DNA of 64,000 nucleotides from Blastocatellia bacterium (GTDB taxonomy: Bacteria; Acidobacteriota; Blastocatellia; Pyrinomonadales; Pyrinomonadaceae): assembly GCA_003168335.1 (NCBI GenBank), contig PMSM01000002.1:372001-436000 (forward strand), read 5' to 3'. The translations under genes and the position numbers were made by a program. Shown piece by piece: positions 108 through 5,508 of this stretch (positions are counted from its first letter, which is position 1; every line of letters begins with the position of its first letter). The notes under the pieces are model-generated. The model was not told the origin of the DNA, did not search any database, and was given only the letters and a program-made list of their open reading frames with translations.

Positions 108-3100
108 CTACGCAACTTCTCGAGTCTGAGTGCTGAGCAGATAGATCGCTTCCATCACGGCCGTGTGTACGTCGGCCGGCAGAGTCTCACGAGCAGCCAG
201 GCTGCGAAACGCCGGAAGGATTTGAGGCTGGTTGCTGAGAGCGAGCAACTTGACGGCGGTGAGTTGCACTTCGCGATTCGGATGTTTGGCGATCGCCTGC
301 ATTAACGGCTGAACTTCGCCGGCTTTGGCCATCAGGAAAAGCATAGAAAACGCATCGTACGTTCGATCGCGGCCTTCGCCCGTCAGGCTGTTGATGGCGT
401 CTGCCGCCAATCCCGATCCCGCGATCGCTGCGCCGATCTTTCGCCGTCGTTCCGGCGCGGCTTCCCTTAAGGCGCGAGTAAACGAAGCGGACAGGTCGGG
501 GTGCAAATGGTAGAGTGCGCGCGCGGCTGCATTGCGGACTTCGACACTTGTGTCGTCGAACGATCTAGTGATCAGGCGAAACGCATCATCGCCGCCGGCC
601 TCTGCCAGATCAGCCAAAGCCGCCGCCCGTTCAGATGAGTTTGCGCTTTGCAGGCGCTCAGCCATCTCGGGTGAAAACGACGGATCGTCGCCATTGGAGG
701 CGGGCCCGCTTTTGGCTTTGATGGCTGAGGGCGTGGTTGTTGAATGTCCGGCTGTGCTTTGATCCGGATCGACAGGTTCCAAGACAACCAGATCCGCGGT
801 TGTCTCGGCCGTCACGAATTCGATTTCCTTGCTCGCGGCAACCCGATTGGTGGACTGGTCCATGTCGATTACGAGCCAGGGGCGTTCACCCGATTCGCTC
901 GACGGAGCGGCCGGGGCGAGCGCGGCTGCGAGGGAGCTTGGATCTGACGACAAGAGCCTATCGCCGGCGACCTCAACTTCTGAAATAACATTGACGTGGT
1001 CTTGTTTTGCCTGGCGGAGCCCGTCGATTCTTGAATTGAGCGTGTGCTCTCTCGCATTTCGCTGCTCTGCTTCGGTCTGCGCCTTTTCGCAAATGGCTTC
1101 GAGTTGACTCAGCCGCTGCAGTTCCTCATCGGCCCGACGTTGCGCTTGCGCTTCAGCTTGCCGGACCGCTTCTTCGTGGCCGGGAAGGCGAGCTTCAGCT
1201 TCTTTGACCCGGTTAATCAGTTCGGTTTCAGTTTGGCTGAGCGTTTCGATCTCGGCAACGATCTGCTGCTCTGTTTCCGCCAGTTGCTTCACCCTGGCTC
1301 TGGCCGATTGGCGAGCTTCTTCCTGCGCGCGCAGCCGGCTATCAGCCTCTTCGATCCGTCTTACTTGCTCCTCTTCGGCGACTCGTAGCGCTTCGATTGT
1401 GGCGTTGAGCTGCTGTTCTTTCTCAGCCCGTCGTTGGGCGCCCACCTTACCGCCGTGAAGCGCTTCTTCCTGCGCGCGGAGACGGAGTGCAGCTTCCTCG
1501 ACAAGTTTGAACCCATCGTCCCGGCGCTTACGCGCAGCTTCTAACTTGAGGTTGATCTGTTCGAACTTCTCGGCGTGCTGTTGCACTTCGGCTTCAGCCA
1601 GATAGCAGGCCTTCACCTGCGCCGCCAGTCGCTCTTGTATCCCATCGATGCGTTTGACGTGCTCTTCTTCCTGCTCGCGCAGAACACCTACGGCAACGGT
1701 GAGCTGTTGTTCCTGTTCGAGGAGCAACTCCGCTTCTTCCGTGGCCAGGCGGCGAGCTTCCTCGAGCGCCGGAATGCGGGTCTTGATCTCCTCGATCCGT
1801 TCGAGCTGGGCCTGTTCAGCCCGGCGCAAACTTTCGATTTCTTCATTGAGCCGTTGTTCTTTTTCAGTTTGCTGTTTGGCTTGAGCTTCGGCTAGCTGCC
1901 GGGTCTTTCCCTGCTCGACAAAACGAGATTCGACTTCGACGATGCGTTTGAGCAGATCCTGCTCTGCCTGGCGCATCGAGTTAGTCTCAGATTTAAGTGA
2001 CTGTTCCTTTTCAGCAAGTCGCGCTAATTCCGCTTCCTGTTCCTGTCGCAAGTTTTCGGCACTGGCGACCAGGGCCTGGGTTGCTTCAATTCGTTTCACT
2101 TGCTCTTGTTCAGCTTGCCTTAGCGTTTCAACCTGAGCTTTAAGCTCCGGTTCTTTCTCGGCCCGCTCGCGCGACTCTGCCTCGATCTTCCTGCCGATCG
2201 CTCGCAACTCTTCCAGCTGCTGCTCCTGTTCCTGGGCCCGAGCCTGCGCTTCGGTCTCAGCGCGCTGATGCGCCTCCTGTTGAGCGTGAAACCGAGCCTG
2301 CGCTGCTGCGGTGCGCTTGAGCTGTTCTTCCTCACCCTGATGCAGTGCTTGAATCTGAGCGTTGAGGGATTGCTCTTTCGCGGCTCGCTGTTGCGACGCG
2401 GCTTCGGCCTCTGCGCGCGCGGTTTCCAGCTCAGCCAGCCTTTGCTCGTCCTGTTCGGCGCGCAGCTCGGCTTCGATTCTGGCTCTGAGATGCGCTTCTT
2501 CCTGAGTTCGCAGACGGGCCTCGGCCTCGCCGATGCGGTTCCGATGTGCTTGTTCCTCGACCCGCAGCTTGTCGATAGTCGCGTTTAGACTTTGTTCCTC
2601 GCGATTTAGCTCTTCCGTTTTGGCGACAACTGACTGGTGCGCTTCTTGCTGCGCGCGAAGTCTGGTTTCAGCCTGGCCTATCAACGCGCACTGCTCTGCT
2701 TCCGCCTGGCGTAAACCTTCGAGTTCAGTGTGGAGTTCGCGCTCCTGCTCGGCCAGTCGGTTGGCTTCCAACTCTATCCTCTGCAGTGACGCCCCCAGCC
2801 CCAGTACCTGGGCGTTTGCCTGCTGGAGCTTTCCAATCTCATCCTGCCCAGCTCTTTCCAGGGCTTCGATCTCGGCCGCGAGTTGCTGTGCCTTTTCGGT
2901 GTGCTGCGCCACGGCCAGTCTGGCTGACTGTTGAGACTCTTCCAAAGCTCGGACGCGCGCTTGAGCTGCGGCGACCTGCTGCAGTTGAAGTTCGTCAGCG
3001 CTTTGCAGCGCTGCGAATTCCGTCTTGAGCTGTTGTTCTTTCTCAGCCTGGCGTTTCGTTTCAGTTTCAGCTCGGTGTCGCGCTTCCAGTTGGACCAGCA

Positions 3101-3866
3101 GACGCGCTTCGATTTCTTCAACGAGCCTGAGTTGTTCCTGCTCGGTCGTTCGCTGCGCTTCGATTTCGGCGCTGAGCCATTGTTCTCTTTCGACTCGCTG
3201 CGTTGCTGCGGCTTCAGCCTGGCGACAAGCTTCCTGCTGTGCGCGGAGGTTGACCTCAGCTTGCTCTATGCGCTCGAGTTCTTCCTGCTCCGACATGCGC
3301 AGCGCATCGATCTCAGCATTCAGTTGTTCAACTTGCCGGGCTCGCTCTTGCGCATCCGTCTCAGCCTTTTTGCGAATGGCCAGCAGCTCCGCCAGTTGCT
3401 GTTCTTCCGCCAAGGCACGGTCATGCGCTTGATCTTCCTCGCGCCGGCGCGCTTCTTCGGCCGCCCTGCGGTGAGCCTCTGCTTCAGCTTTCTTCTTGGC
3501 GGCCTGCACTTCGGCGCGGCGTCGCTCGAGTTCCAGTTCGGCCTGCTTTAAGGCTTCTTCTTCTTTGCGAAGATCGTCGTCAGGGACCACGGGGTATTCC
3601 ATCGATCTGGCTGTCGACCGTCGTTCCAGTTGGGCTCCGAGGTCCGCTGGGAATTGCTTAATTTCCGCGCTACCGACGAAAGCCTCGCGCGCGTGGGCGA
3701 GCTGCTCCAGATTACCGCTGGCCAACGCGGCCAGCAGCTGGTCGGCAACCATTTGCCGGCTCGACGCTTCTTTCTCGTAGTTTGCTCCAGAGTCGCCGTT
3801 GCGTCCGCCGGGCACACGGTCCTGATCGGGCTCAAATTTTGGGGGTCGTGAAGACGATTGGTCCAT
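108..3866 (-). CDS. Giant coiled-coil protein with C-terminal HEAT-like repeats
   Basis: Encodes about 1252 residues. I start at the ATG at 3866 rather than the TTG two codons upstream, because a GGAGG/GGAG purine stretch lies at a usable distance. The N-terminal ~100 residues are hydrophilic and there is no signal peptide or membrane segment. Residues ~100-965 are an almost uninterrupted, charged coiled coil rich in E, Q, R and A, made of regular 49-residue repeats and four 25-residue units (see the repeat entry). After a flexible linker rich in S, A and P, the last ~190 residues (from about SPEMAERLQSANSSERAAA) form alpha-helical HEAT-like repeats with AAALADLAE and VRNAAARALYHL patterns. 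A structural, scaffolding or mechanical role in the cytoplasm is inferred. I recognise no named family. It is divergent from the next gene, so it appears monocistronic. Confidence 0.9.
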   Translation of the reverse strand: MDQSSSRPPKFEPDQDRVPGGRNGDSGANYEKEASSRQMVADQLLAALASGNLEQLAHAREAFVGSAEIKQFPADLGAQLERRSTARSMEYPVVPDDDLRKEEEALKQAELELERRRAEVQAAKKKAEAEAHRRAAEEARRREEDQAHDRALAEEQQLAELLAIRKKAETDAQERARQVEQLNAEIDALRMSEQEELERIEQAEVNLRAQQEACRQAEAAATQRVEREQWLSAEIEAQRTTEQEQLRLVEEIEARLLVQLEARHRAETETKRQAEKEQQLKTEFAALQSADELQLQQVAAAQARVRALEESQQSARLAVAQHTEKAQQLAAEIEALERAGQDEIGKLQQANAQVLGLGASLQRIELEANRLAEQERELHTELEGLRQAEAEQCALIGQAETRLRAQQEAHQSVVAKTEELNREEQSLNATIDKLRVEEQAHRNRIGEAEARLRTQEEAHLRARIEAELRAEQDEQRLAELETARAEAEAASQQRAAKEQSLNAQIQALHQGEEEQLKRTAAAQARFHAQQEAHQRAETEAQARAQEQEQQLEELRAIGRKIEAESRERAEKEPELKAQVETLRQAEQEQVKRIEATQALVASAENLRQEQEAELARLAEKEQSLKSETNSMRQAEQDLLKRIVEVESRFVEQGKTRQLAEAQAKQQTEKEQRLNEEIESLRRAEQAQLERIEEIKTRIPALEEARRLATEEAELLLEQEQQLTVAVGVLREQEEEHVKRIDGIQERLAAQVKACYLAEAEVQQHAEKFEQINLKLEAARKRRDDGFKLVEEAALRLRAQEEALHGGKVGAQRRAEKEQQLNATIEALRVAEEEQVRRIEEADSRLRAQEEARQSARARVKQLAETEQQIVAEIETLSQTETELINRVKEAEARLPGHEEAVRQAEAQAQRRADEELQRLSQLEAICEKAQTEAEQRNAREHTLNSRIDGLRQAKQDHVNVISEVEVAGDRLLSSDPSSLAAALAPAAPSSESGERPWLVIDMDQSTNRVAASKEIEFVTAETTADLVVLEPVDPDQSTAGHSTTTPSAIKAKSGPASNGDDPSFSPEMAERLQSANSSERAAALADLAEAGGDDAFRLITRSFDDTSVEVRNAAARALYHLHPDLSASFTRALREAAPERRRKIGAAIAGSGLAADAINSLTGEGRDRTYDAFSMLFLMAKAGEVQPLMQAIAKHPNREVQLTAVKLLALSNQPQILPAFRSLAARETLPADVHTAVMEAIYLLSTQTREVA
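1059..3416 (-). repeat. 49-residue (147-bp) coiled-coil repeat array with 25-residue spacer units
   Basis: The coding repeat lies inside the coiled-coil gene. Reading the protein, I count 14 full units of exactly 49 residues (seven heptads) and one partial unit. Each begins like AEKEQQLN, continues with an IEALRxAEEEQ segment and an RIEEAxxRLRAQEEA segment, and ends near QAQRR. Four units of exactly 25 residues (for example starting AEQDEQRLAEL and ending near ASQQR) lie before unit 1, between units 6 and 7, between 7 and 8, and after 14. The order is B-A6-B-A-B-A7-B-A'. Constant unit length with diverged sequence points to old tandem duplication under length constraint. Confidence 0.85.
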
Positions 3867-4371
3867 GTTCAAATTTCTCCACCTCCAGCGAACACCGCGG
3901 CCGGAGAACGGCCTTGGGTTTCAGGCTAGTTATGAGACGGCTCAGCCTTATATTCTTCGGCGCCTTTGGCTAATCTGGGTTATTAGTTTACGACGTGATG
4001 TGTCGCAATAGCGAGGTTGACGATCCTATTCGTCCCGAGTTGCCGCCTCAGATGGCCGGGCCATCCAAGACTGTCTTGATTCTCGCAAATCTTGGGTGGT
4101 GAGGTCAATAGCGCTTTTTGACTCCTGATAGAGAGCGGCCCGGCACCTTGTACTCCGAAGACATGGATTCAGCGCGACGGGAATGGTCCCGAATGACGGG
4201 AAACCCTCAAATAAACGGGCTCTGAGCAATTCCGGCAGGGTCTTTGGTCAGGCGAGTATGGCGCGATTGACTCATTGCCGGGACGGCCATAATATCGCGA
4301 GCAAGTGCTTTGTCTTCTGGTCCTGTCGCGGGGCAGGGCGGTCGAATCTTTGGATAGGATTGGATAGAAGG
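3867..4371. other. Divergent intergenic region
   Basis: About 500 bases lie between the 5' ends of two divergent genes. It must hold promoters for both, but I could not assign -35/-10 boxes with confidence. Short ORFs here lack ribosome sites and codon patterns like the neighbours. The 5' extension of the next gene's frame (from 4183) has no signal-like or conserved sequence and is better read as leader. Confidence 0.4.
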
Positions 4372-5508
4372 ATGTACGCCATCGAGAATCCGGGAGCGGC
4401 CAGACGCGCCATCGCGGTTGGGCGTGCCGCCTTAGTCGTCTTGCTCCTGTTGGCGACTACCGCTATGGGGCAGGTAGGAGAGAAAAGCAATCGCCCAACT
4501 CCCGCGCCTACTCCCTCACGATCAGAGTCCCATCCATGGCCGGAACCGAGACCCGACTTACCGCGCATGCAGCCTTTGCCACACTCATCTGTAGTCGAAA
4601 TCAAGTCGTCTCTCACGGAACTCAGAGAGAATGTCGCACTTATGGAAGCCGTCAATGATGATTTGCAGCGAGCGATCACTGCGACCTCCTCGCCGGATTA
4701 CTTGTCAGTGGCAACGAATGCTACCGATATTAGGAGGCTTGCTATCAGGTTGATGAGGAATCTGGCGTTGCCACGAAACGCGGCCCAAACATCACCCGAG
4801 ACTCCCCTGCCCGGAGTGTCGGCCGACGAGCTGAAAGCTTCGATCATCGCTCTCGATGCGACCATCCAGGAGTTCTTAAAGGATCCTGTTCTGATACAGC
4901 CGCACACAGTAGACGCCGAACAATTGAACAGCGCCGCTGCAAAGTTGGAAACAGTGATGAACCGGAGCGCCATGGTACAAAAGGAGGCTGAGATGCTCGC
5001 GACCAATTCCGGCAAAGCGGTAACGAAGGCAACCCGACGCATTAAGAGCAGGCTCGTCACAAGTACGTCGATTCAACTCACCCTCGAATGCAGCGCGTGG
5101 TCTATGAGCGAATTGCTAAAGCACCCATCTCAGATCAAGAGTCACGGCTCAGTCAACATAGGCGCGAACGTCAAAACGAGTCGGCACAAACTGAGCGAGC
5201 AACTGCTGCTGCCGATCGATGATTGCGTGGACGGTGAAGCCTATGAAAAGACCATCACAGACCGAGTGCAGTACGTGGCAATTGTCACAGACTTTACTTC
5301 TTATGAAGTTAAGGGAAGGGTGTTTGCATACCGCGTGACTTACGAGATTGGTTTTACCAGGAGTGCCCAGGTGGCGAAACGCTTCCCGCAGCCGATTTCG
5401 TTCTACTATGTCGACGATGCCGGAGATGGCAGCTTCGAGCTTCTTAAAGGGTCCCCGTCGTTCGGACTTTTACCCGATTGGGCCGCGGAGCTGGCTCGAA
5501 AGCACTAG
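4372..5508 (+). CDS. Exported protein of unknown function
   Basis: 378 residues from the ATG at 4372. The frame is open from 4183, but the hydrophobic segment AALVVLLLLATTAMGQ lies directly behind this Met and reads as a Sec signal peptide ending near AMGQ. An AGAAGG purine run sits just before the ATG. The mature part begins with a Pro-rich linker (PTPAPTPSRS..PEPRPDLP), then a helical region of about 150 residues (SSLTELRENVALMEAVNDDLQRA), then a mixed domain near the C-terminus with FAYRVTYEIGF and FYYVDDAGDGSFELL strands. No family recognised. The C-terminal half could be a beta-rich ligand or surface domain, but that is a guess. Secretion to periplasm or outer surface is inferred. Confidence 0.7.
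   Translation: MYAIENPGAARRAIAVGRAALVVLLLLATTAMGQVGEKSNRPTPAPTPSRSESHPWPEPRPDLPRMQPLPHSSVVEIKSSLTELRENVALMEAVNDDLQRAITATSSPDYLSVATNATDIRRLAIRLMRNLALPRNAAQTSPETPLPGVSADELKASIIALDATIQEFLKDPVLIQPHTVDAEQLNSAAAKLETVMNRSAMVQKEAEMLATNSGKAVTKATRRIKSRLVTSTSIQLTLECSAWSMSELLKHPSQIKSHGSVNIGANVKTSRHKLSEQLLLPIDDCVDGEAYEKTITDRVQYVAIVTDFTSYEVKGRVFAYRVTYEIGFTRSAQVAKRFPQPISFYYVDDAGDGSFELLKGSPSFGLLPDWAAELARKH

Follow-up and report, generated by a model that had tools for sequence, protein, structure and literature searches.

The gene at the beginning of a 64,000-nucleotide stretch from the genome of a soil acidobacterium (Pyrinomonadaceae, class Blastocatellia; contig PMSM01000002.1, positions 372,001 to 436,000; hereafter the window) most likely encodes a cell-scaffold protein whose length would be set in whole repeat units. 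It lies on the minus strand at 108–3866 (ATG at 3866, stop codon at 108–110) and specifies 1252 amino acids (aa), a coiled-coil rod with a HEAT-like end; residues are numbered here from this ATG. We propose, with about an even chance of being right, that the product is a cytoplasmic modular coiled-coil rod whose C-terminus carries a HEAT-like docking domain, that the rod measures about 120–130 nm at full extension, and that it serves as an envelope-linked scaffold of the intermediate filament (IF)-like kind. An earlier sequence-only reading had estimated a coil of about 130 nm, in agreement with this length. No membrane segment was found in the window protein.

A rod of 49- and 25-residue units

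When the protein was compared with itself, a lag of 49 residues was dominant (z 4.7 over lags 5–129 and 4.9 over lags 5–199), followed by lags of 98 and 74 (= 49 + 25). The mean BLOSUM score at lag 49 was 1.00; none of 1000 shuffles in which whole heptads were moved, so that the coiled-coil character was preserved, exceeded 0.06. A first, looser parse, which took in parts of both terminal regions, was dropped as over-fitting and redone with stiffer penalties. This circular-profile parse, with stiff gap costs, gave unit starts spaced by 49, 49, 49, 49, 49, 49, 25, 49, (25 + 49), 49, 49, 49, 49, 49, 49 and 25 residues. The order is B-A6-B-A-B-A7-B-A′, with fifteen A units of exactly 49 residues and four B units of exactly 25. 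The sequence-only reading had proposed this order and these strict lengths, and self-comparison and heptad shuffles bear out the repeat and the parse its order; its limits for the array, 1059–3416, have to be moved to 966–3470, about 835 residues of coil.

From the N-terminal side, and all on the minus strand, the array begins with B1 (3396–3470; residues 133–157), the weakest B, which was assigned by eye from the sequence, as the parse itself starts at A1. It continues with the six units A1–A6 (2514–3395), B2 (2439–2513), the single unit A7 (2292–2438), B3 (2217–2291), the seven units A8–A14 (1188–2216), B4 (1113–1187) and the final A′ (966–1112), which also has 49 residues and is decayed, matching weakly, at its end. 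The A unit directly after each B, among them A1, A7 and A′, belongs to a distinct subtype, A*, with L at position 4 (LxxLxxxxxxxE). Because each B precedes this subtype, the natural module is a 74-residue B-A*, of which the window protein holds four copies.

Helical register and stutters

Hydrophobicity showed one dominant period, 3.506 residues, which equals 14 turns per 49 residues, and the unit has 14 core positions. Large hydrophobic residues occupy columns 1, 25, 29, 32, 40 and 43 of the unit, while Glu predominates in core slots 22 and 36, which rank with the positions best conserved between species; some of the 49-residue units fall short of an ideal core. The phase of the hydrophobic stripe was 232, 189, 134 and 101 degrees in the successive blocks separated by B2, B3 and B4, the step expected for each B being −51 degrees (25 residues on a 3.5 lattice); the single-unit block A7 had a weak phase amplitude, so that its value alone carries little weight. 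A heptad-register path that was blind to the units shifted by 3 where predicted coil segments join on either side of a B, both in the window protein and in three orthologs. The path, whose scoring matrix was entered by hand, is taken as supporting evidence; a large part of the array was below its coil threshold, and not every B was covered.

Parse and hydrophobic phase mark B2 and B3 as stutters, and for B4 the register path does so as well. The register shift at each B, as anticipated by the sequence-only reading, is visible in the phase steps and in the register path, but the notion of B as a disruption has to be given up: 25 residues are 7 + 7 + 11, which makes B a classical stutter, as defined in PMC4786415, and not a break. 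Stutters are viewed as local changes of the superhelix rather than breaks (PMC4786415, PMC10873595), and intermediate filament proteins and crescentin carry them without interruption of the coil (PMC10873595).

The composition of the coil raises the question of whether it is a coiled coil throughout. It could consist mostly of single alpha-helices of the TolA-like kind and act as a stiff spacer between N- and C-terminal HEAT elements, without self-association. It is rich in E, R, Q and A, its charge pairs at i+4 are 1.8 times as frequent as in shuffled sequence, and its relatives consist of 8-residue low-complexity helix and match TolA weakly. The window paralog, however, contains 20% LIVMF and is strongly periodic at 3.5 residues, with core columns that are conserved, unlike the 8-periodic relatives, and we consider the single-helix spacer unlikely.

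The C-terminal HEAT domain and its family

The C-terminal ~190 residues (111–677, minus strand) form a HEAT-like alpha-solenoid of about 12 helices, as judged from sequence matches and a structure model. The Pfam HEAT score was 19 bits, under the cut-off of 23.5; paralogs of the window protein pass HEAT_2, and in a sequence search the region matched designed alphaRep at 2e-5. AlphaFold modelled the C-terminal domain with a predicted local distance difference test (pLDDT) value of 88 and 12 helices. Foldseek returned designed ARM/alphaRep solenoids at 5.6e-5 with a template modelling (TM) score of only ~0.3, so that the shape of the superhelix is not matched. These results place the protein among the HEAT-repeat proteins, whose mark is tandem antiparallel helix pairs of ~30–40 residues, and the HEAT-like end that had been read from the sequence is strongly supported by Pfam, alphaRep, AlphaFold and Foldseek together. 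Between the array and this domain lies a low-complexity linker (678–965), variable in length in the ortholog alignment, with the tryptophan motif RPWLVIDMDQ at 855–884. All the family members inspected have a tryptophan in similar surroundings, of the form [E/P]-W-[LMF]-x-[IV]-[DN], which may be a docking motif. At the other end of the protein, within the N-terminal 132 residues (3471–3866), residues 8–65 match the start of the relatives' HEAT region at 36% over this short stretch.

The C-terminal HEAT domain was matched in 94 of 119 Pyrinomonadaceae genomes, with three marginal matches elsewhere in the class, and is 64% identical over the domain to that of the source genome's own uvrB-linked paralog. 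Homology of its HEAT domain to the uvrB-linked coil-HEAT proteins places the window protein in what we call the Pyrinomonadaceae coil-HEAT family, and the domain marks a family of this Acidobacteriota lineage without a named function. In a tree of the HEAT domain, the window-gene clade (100/99) lies inside the coil-HEAT group and adjoins proteins of other genera, not the uvrB-linked paralog of its own genus; therefore, either the gene duplication predates the genus or differential loss has occurred.

In the second family locus of the source genome (L014:1126-12512, on G000:C4), genes for an OmpR-type response regulator, two HEAT proteins that have membrane segments, a TubC_N-coil-HEAT protein and uvrB follow in this order on the same strand; the locus also holds an FAD-linked oxidase. 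G014 has a similar gene order, as judged by gene size and HEAT content. The TubC_N docking domain, familiar from non-ribosomal peptide synthetases, stands at the N-terminus of the coil-HEAT protein (L014:5745-8054) and was also seen in G014 and G034. In G020, a 1392-aa fusion (L020:4899-9077) joins the N-terminal part of the membrane protein (57%), a membrane segment (337–368), HEAT, coil and C-terminal HEAT. This fusion gives the best hint to function, namely that the coil-HEAT proteins probably work in concert with the membrane-HEAT proteins at the envelope. The N-terminus of the fusion has a signal-like start and a beta-rich-looking region without Pfam match.

Coil followed by HEAT repeats is also the layout of PomY, and the window protein could accordingly be a positioning scaffold for the division or polarity machinery instead of a filament. 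The two domain types and their order are identical. The PomY coil, however, has ~100 residues and its HEAT region is followed by a disordered region and a C-terminal gD domain, whereas the window protein stops at HEAT, and no ParA/PomZ-like gene was seen among the immediate neighbours scanned. We regard such a role as quite unlikely.

Length changes, selection and origin of the array

The window gene was present in all seven genomes of its genus, and lag 49 was the strongest or second strongest in each. Block A1–A6 aligned without gaps to G003, G001, G002 and G005 (38–46% identity), and block A8–A14 to the same four and G006 (47–57% identity), save for a G001 insert just inside A8. Within A8–A14, P699 and P895 are 196 residues (= 4 units) apart, a spacing that recurs in G003, G001 and G006, and a Gly near 805–806 recurs in orthologs as well. 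The six orthologs of the genus vary in total length, and the main site of variable length is inside A7 (residue ~501), where orthologs differ by 98 (2A), 172 (3A + B) or 270 (5A + B) residues; G004 has also lost 98 residues (2A) inside A1–A6. Other differences are not unit multiples, namely the G001 insert of 58 residues (2 × 29), the start of the truncated G006 and several irregular G004 and G005 gaps, some of these lengths being partly alignment noise. Close to its C-terminal end, the G005 ortholog (L017:4055-8641) carries an additional run of coil units that are 40 residues long instead of the 49 seen in the others. In the G002 ortholog (L030:4842-8432) the C-terminal HEAT sequence changes abruptly, possibly through a frameshift or an assembly fault, and its HEAT figures are not relied on past that point.

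Orthologous units were on average 56% identical, as opposed to 28% for units within one protein, and dN/dS, the ratio of non-synonymous to synonymous substitution, was 0.10–0.18 in A8–A14. Each unit position therefore has its own conserved sequence under purifying selection, and the length of the whole rod is free to change in steps, mostly of whole units at one middle site, as in a modular rod. Together these two points argue against both the free unit sequence and the fixed length that the sequence-only reading had ascribed to the protein.

Two further readings of the array can be weighed on these data. In the first, the rod would be phase-tuned and cytoskeletal: 49-residue units would hold one face in register, each B would rotate it by 51 degrees at a defined point, and gain or loss of whole units would alter filament length while the pattern of lateral binding faces was kept, with an envelope tether through HEAT–HEAT contact. 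We hold this full combination to be very unlikely. In the second, a molecular ruler or tape measure would set a constant distance through its 49-residue pitch. The strict spacing and the gapless A1–A6 and A8–A14 blocks of most orthologs fit a ruler; however, total length differs between species by 98, 172, 270 and other amounts, the open reading frames (ORFs) of the complete orthologs range from 1096 to 1545 aa, and with G004 having lost units inside the blocks too, a ruler is very unlikely.

A scan with the 49-residue profile, for which the shuffle threshold was below 0 bits, found a single strong copy (43–55 bits) apiece in five coil-HEAT proteins (two in G014, two in G128, one in G132), which are otherwise an 8- or 24-residue low-complexity helix, and several strong copies in G034; G020 and the source genome's own uvrB-linked paralog had no strong copy. 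Among the relatives examined, the 49-residue array was seen only in the genus of the window gene. Since those outside the genus mostly hold one strong copy, the array looks like an amplification, and the simplest account is that an ancestral B-A* module was amplified in tandem in the genus, after which the copies would have diverged and been fixed. Gene sizes had suggested an ortholog at the corresponding locus outside the genus, in G014 and G128; this was rejected, as no aldolase match was found there.

Proposed role and points against it

Of the roles suggested by the sequence-only reading, a filament or spacer is plausible and an SMC-like one is not: a chromosome-bridging protein of the SMC or MukB kind is barely credible and membership of the SMC proteins is rejected, as the long coil gave a weak NCBIfam SMC_prok_B match of 25.8 bits against a cut-off of 567 bits, the 1252 aa contain neither Walker A ([AG]xxxxGK[ST]) nor the ABC signature LSGG, and the genome has a separate 1304-aa SMC at G000:C10:294495-298328, the window locus not being among the SMC_N matches.

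For the envelope-linked scaffold we envisage the following arrangement. Chains would pair through the 49-residue units, probably parallel and in register, and the stutters at the four B sites would keep the coil continuous and locally straighter and turn its face. Unit surfaces, specific to each position, could bind partners or fix a lateral stagger. Through its HEAT end and tryptophan motif the rod would dock to those HEAT proteins of its family that are anchored in the membrane, and would then form a scaffold linked to the envelope, resembling intermediate filaments.

Several observations weigh against this scaffold. The fusion was found in one genome, and in the linked paralog rather than in the window gene. 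AlphaFold, run on the coil as a monomer, gave a predicted TM score of 0.22, uninformative on packing, and its predicted helix breaks were not at B2 or B3. Charge pairs at i+3/i+4 were enriched 1.5–1.8 fold over shuffled sequence, and stretches of the coil could accordingly be single stable helices. Finally, the neighbours of the gene, with synteny conserved across the genus (aldolase II, glyoxalases, a sigma factor and an Oar-like receptor), offer no functional hint, and we judged them uninformative.

Other features of the locus

A Shine-Dalgarno-like sequence, GGAGGTGGAG, is located 10 nt ahead of the ATG (3877–3886, minus strand). On the plus strand, a 441-aa ORF at 4183–5508 without Pfam match is present in the source genome and had no match in the orthologous loci compared. 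A defence or phage origin was rejected, as there was no PADLOC or PHROGs match.

Significance and comparison with known systems

Cell organisation has received little study in the Acidobacteriota, a group of abundant soil bacteria, and among the papers covered by a text search none combined Acidobacteria, Pyrinomonadaceae and cytoskeleton. The orthologs offer a natural series of rods that differ in unit number and share a single end domain, in which the effects of length, register shifts and unit surfaces on assembly can be tested. They also present a long coil that has apparently grown by amplification of one 49-residue module, still a single strong copy in several relatives.

When the literature was searched for earlier descriptions of a coiled-coil repeat of 49 residues, no relevant counterpart was among the matches listed, and the coil had no sequence match to any solved structure at E 0.001. 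The likeness to SMC proteins is confined to the long coil and a superficial profile match, the window protein being without ATPase head motifs. It shares with PomY of Myxococcus xanthus a coiled coil followed by HEAT repeats (PMC13170346); by its layout, however, it is not a PomY, and its coil is about eight times longer. FilP and Scy of Streptomyces are closer in being very long coiled-coil rods (Scy >1000 residues) with lineage-specific paralogs and expansion of coiled-coil repeats (PMC9858780). Theirs, however, are largely hendecad and have a DivIVA-like N-terminal motif, whereas the window protein has 49-residue units of seven heptads, 25-residue stutters and a C-terminal HEAT domain, and a Pfam scan at E 0.1 gave no DivIVA match, which by this test leaves it outside the DivIVA/FilP/Scy group. 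Crescentin and eukaryotic IF proteins likewise consist of a long heptad coil with stutters (PMC10873595), from which the window protein differs in its four stutters and its HEAT domain. Being a long coiled-coil rod without nucleotide-binding motif, it falls among the IF-like, coiled-coil-rich proteins of bacteria, and, while no sequence homology to such coils was found, by analogy it may work like them.
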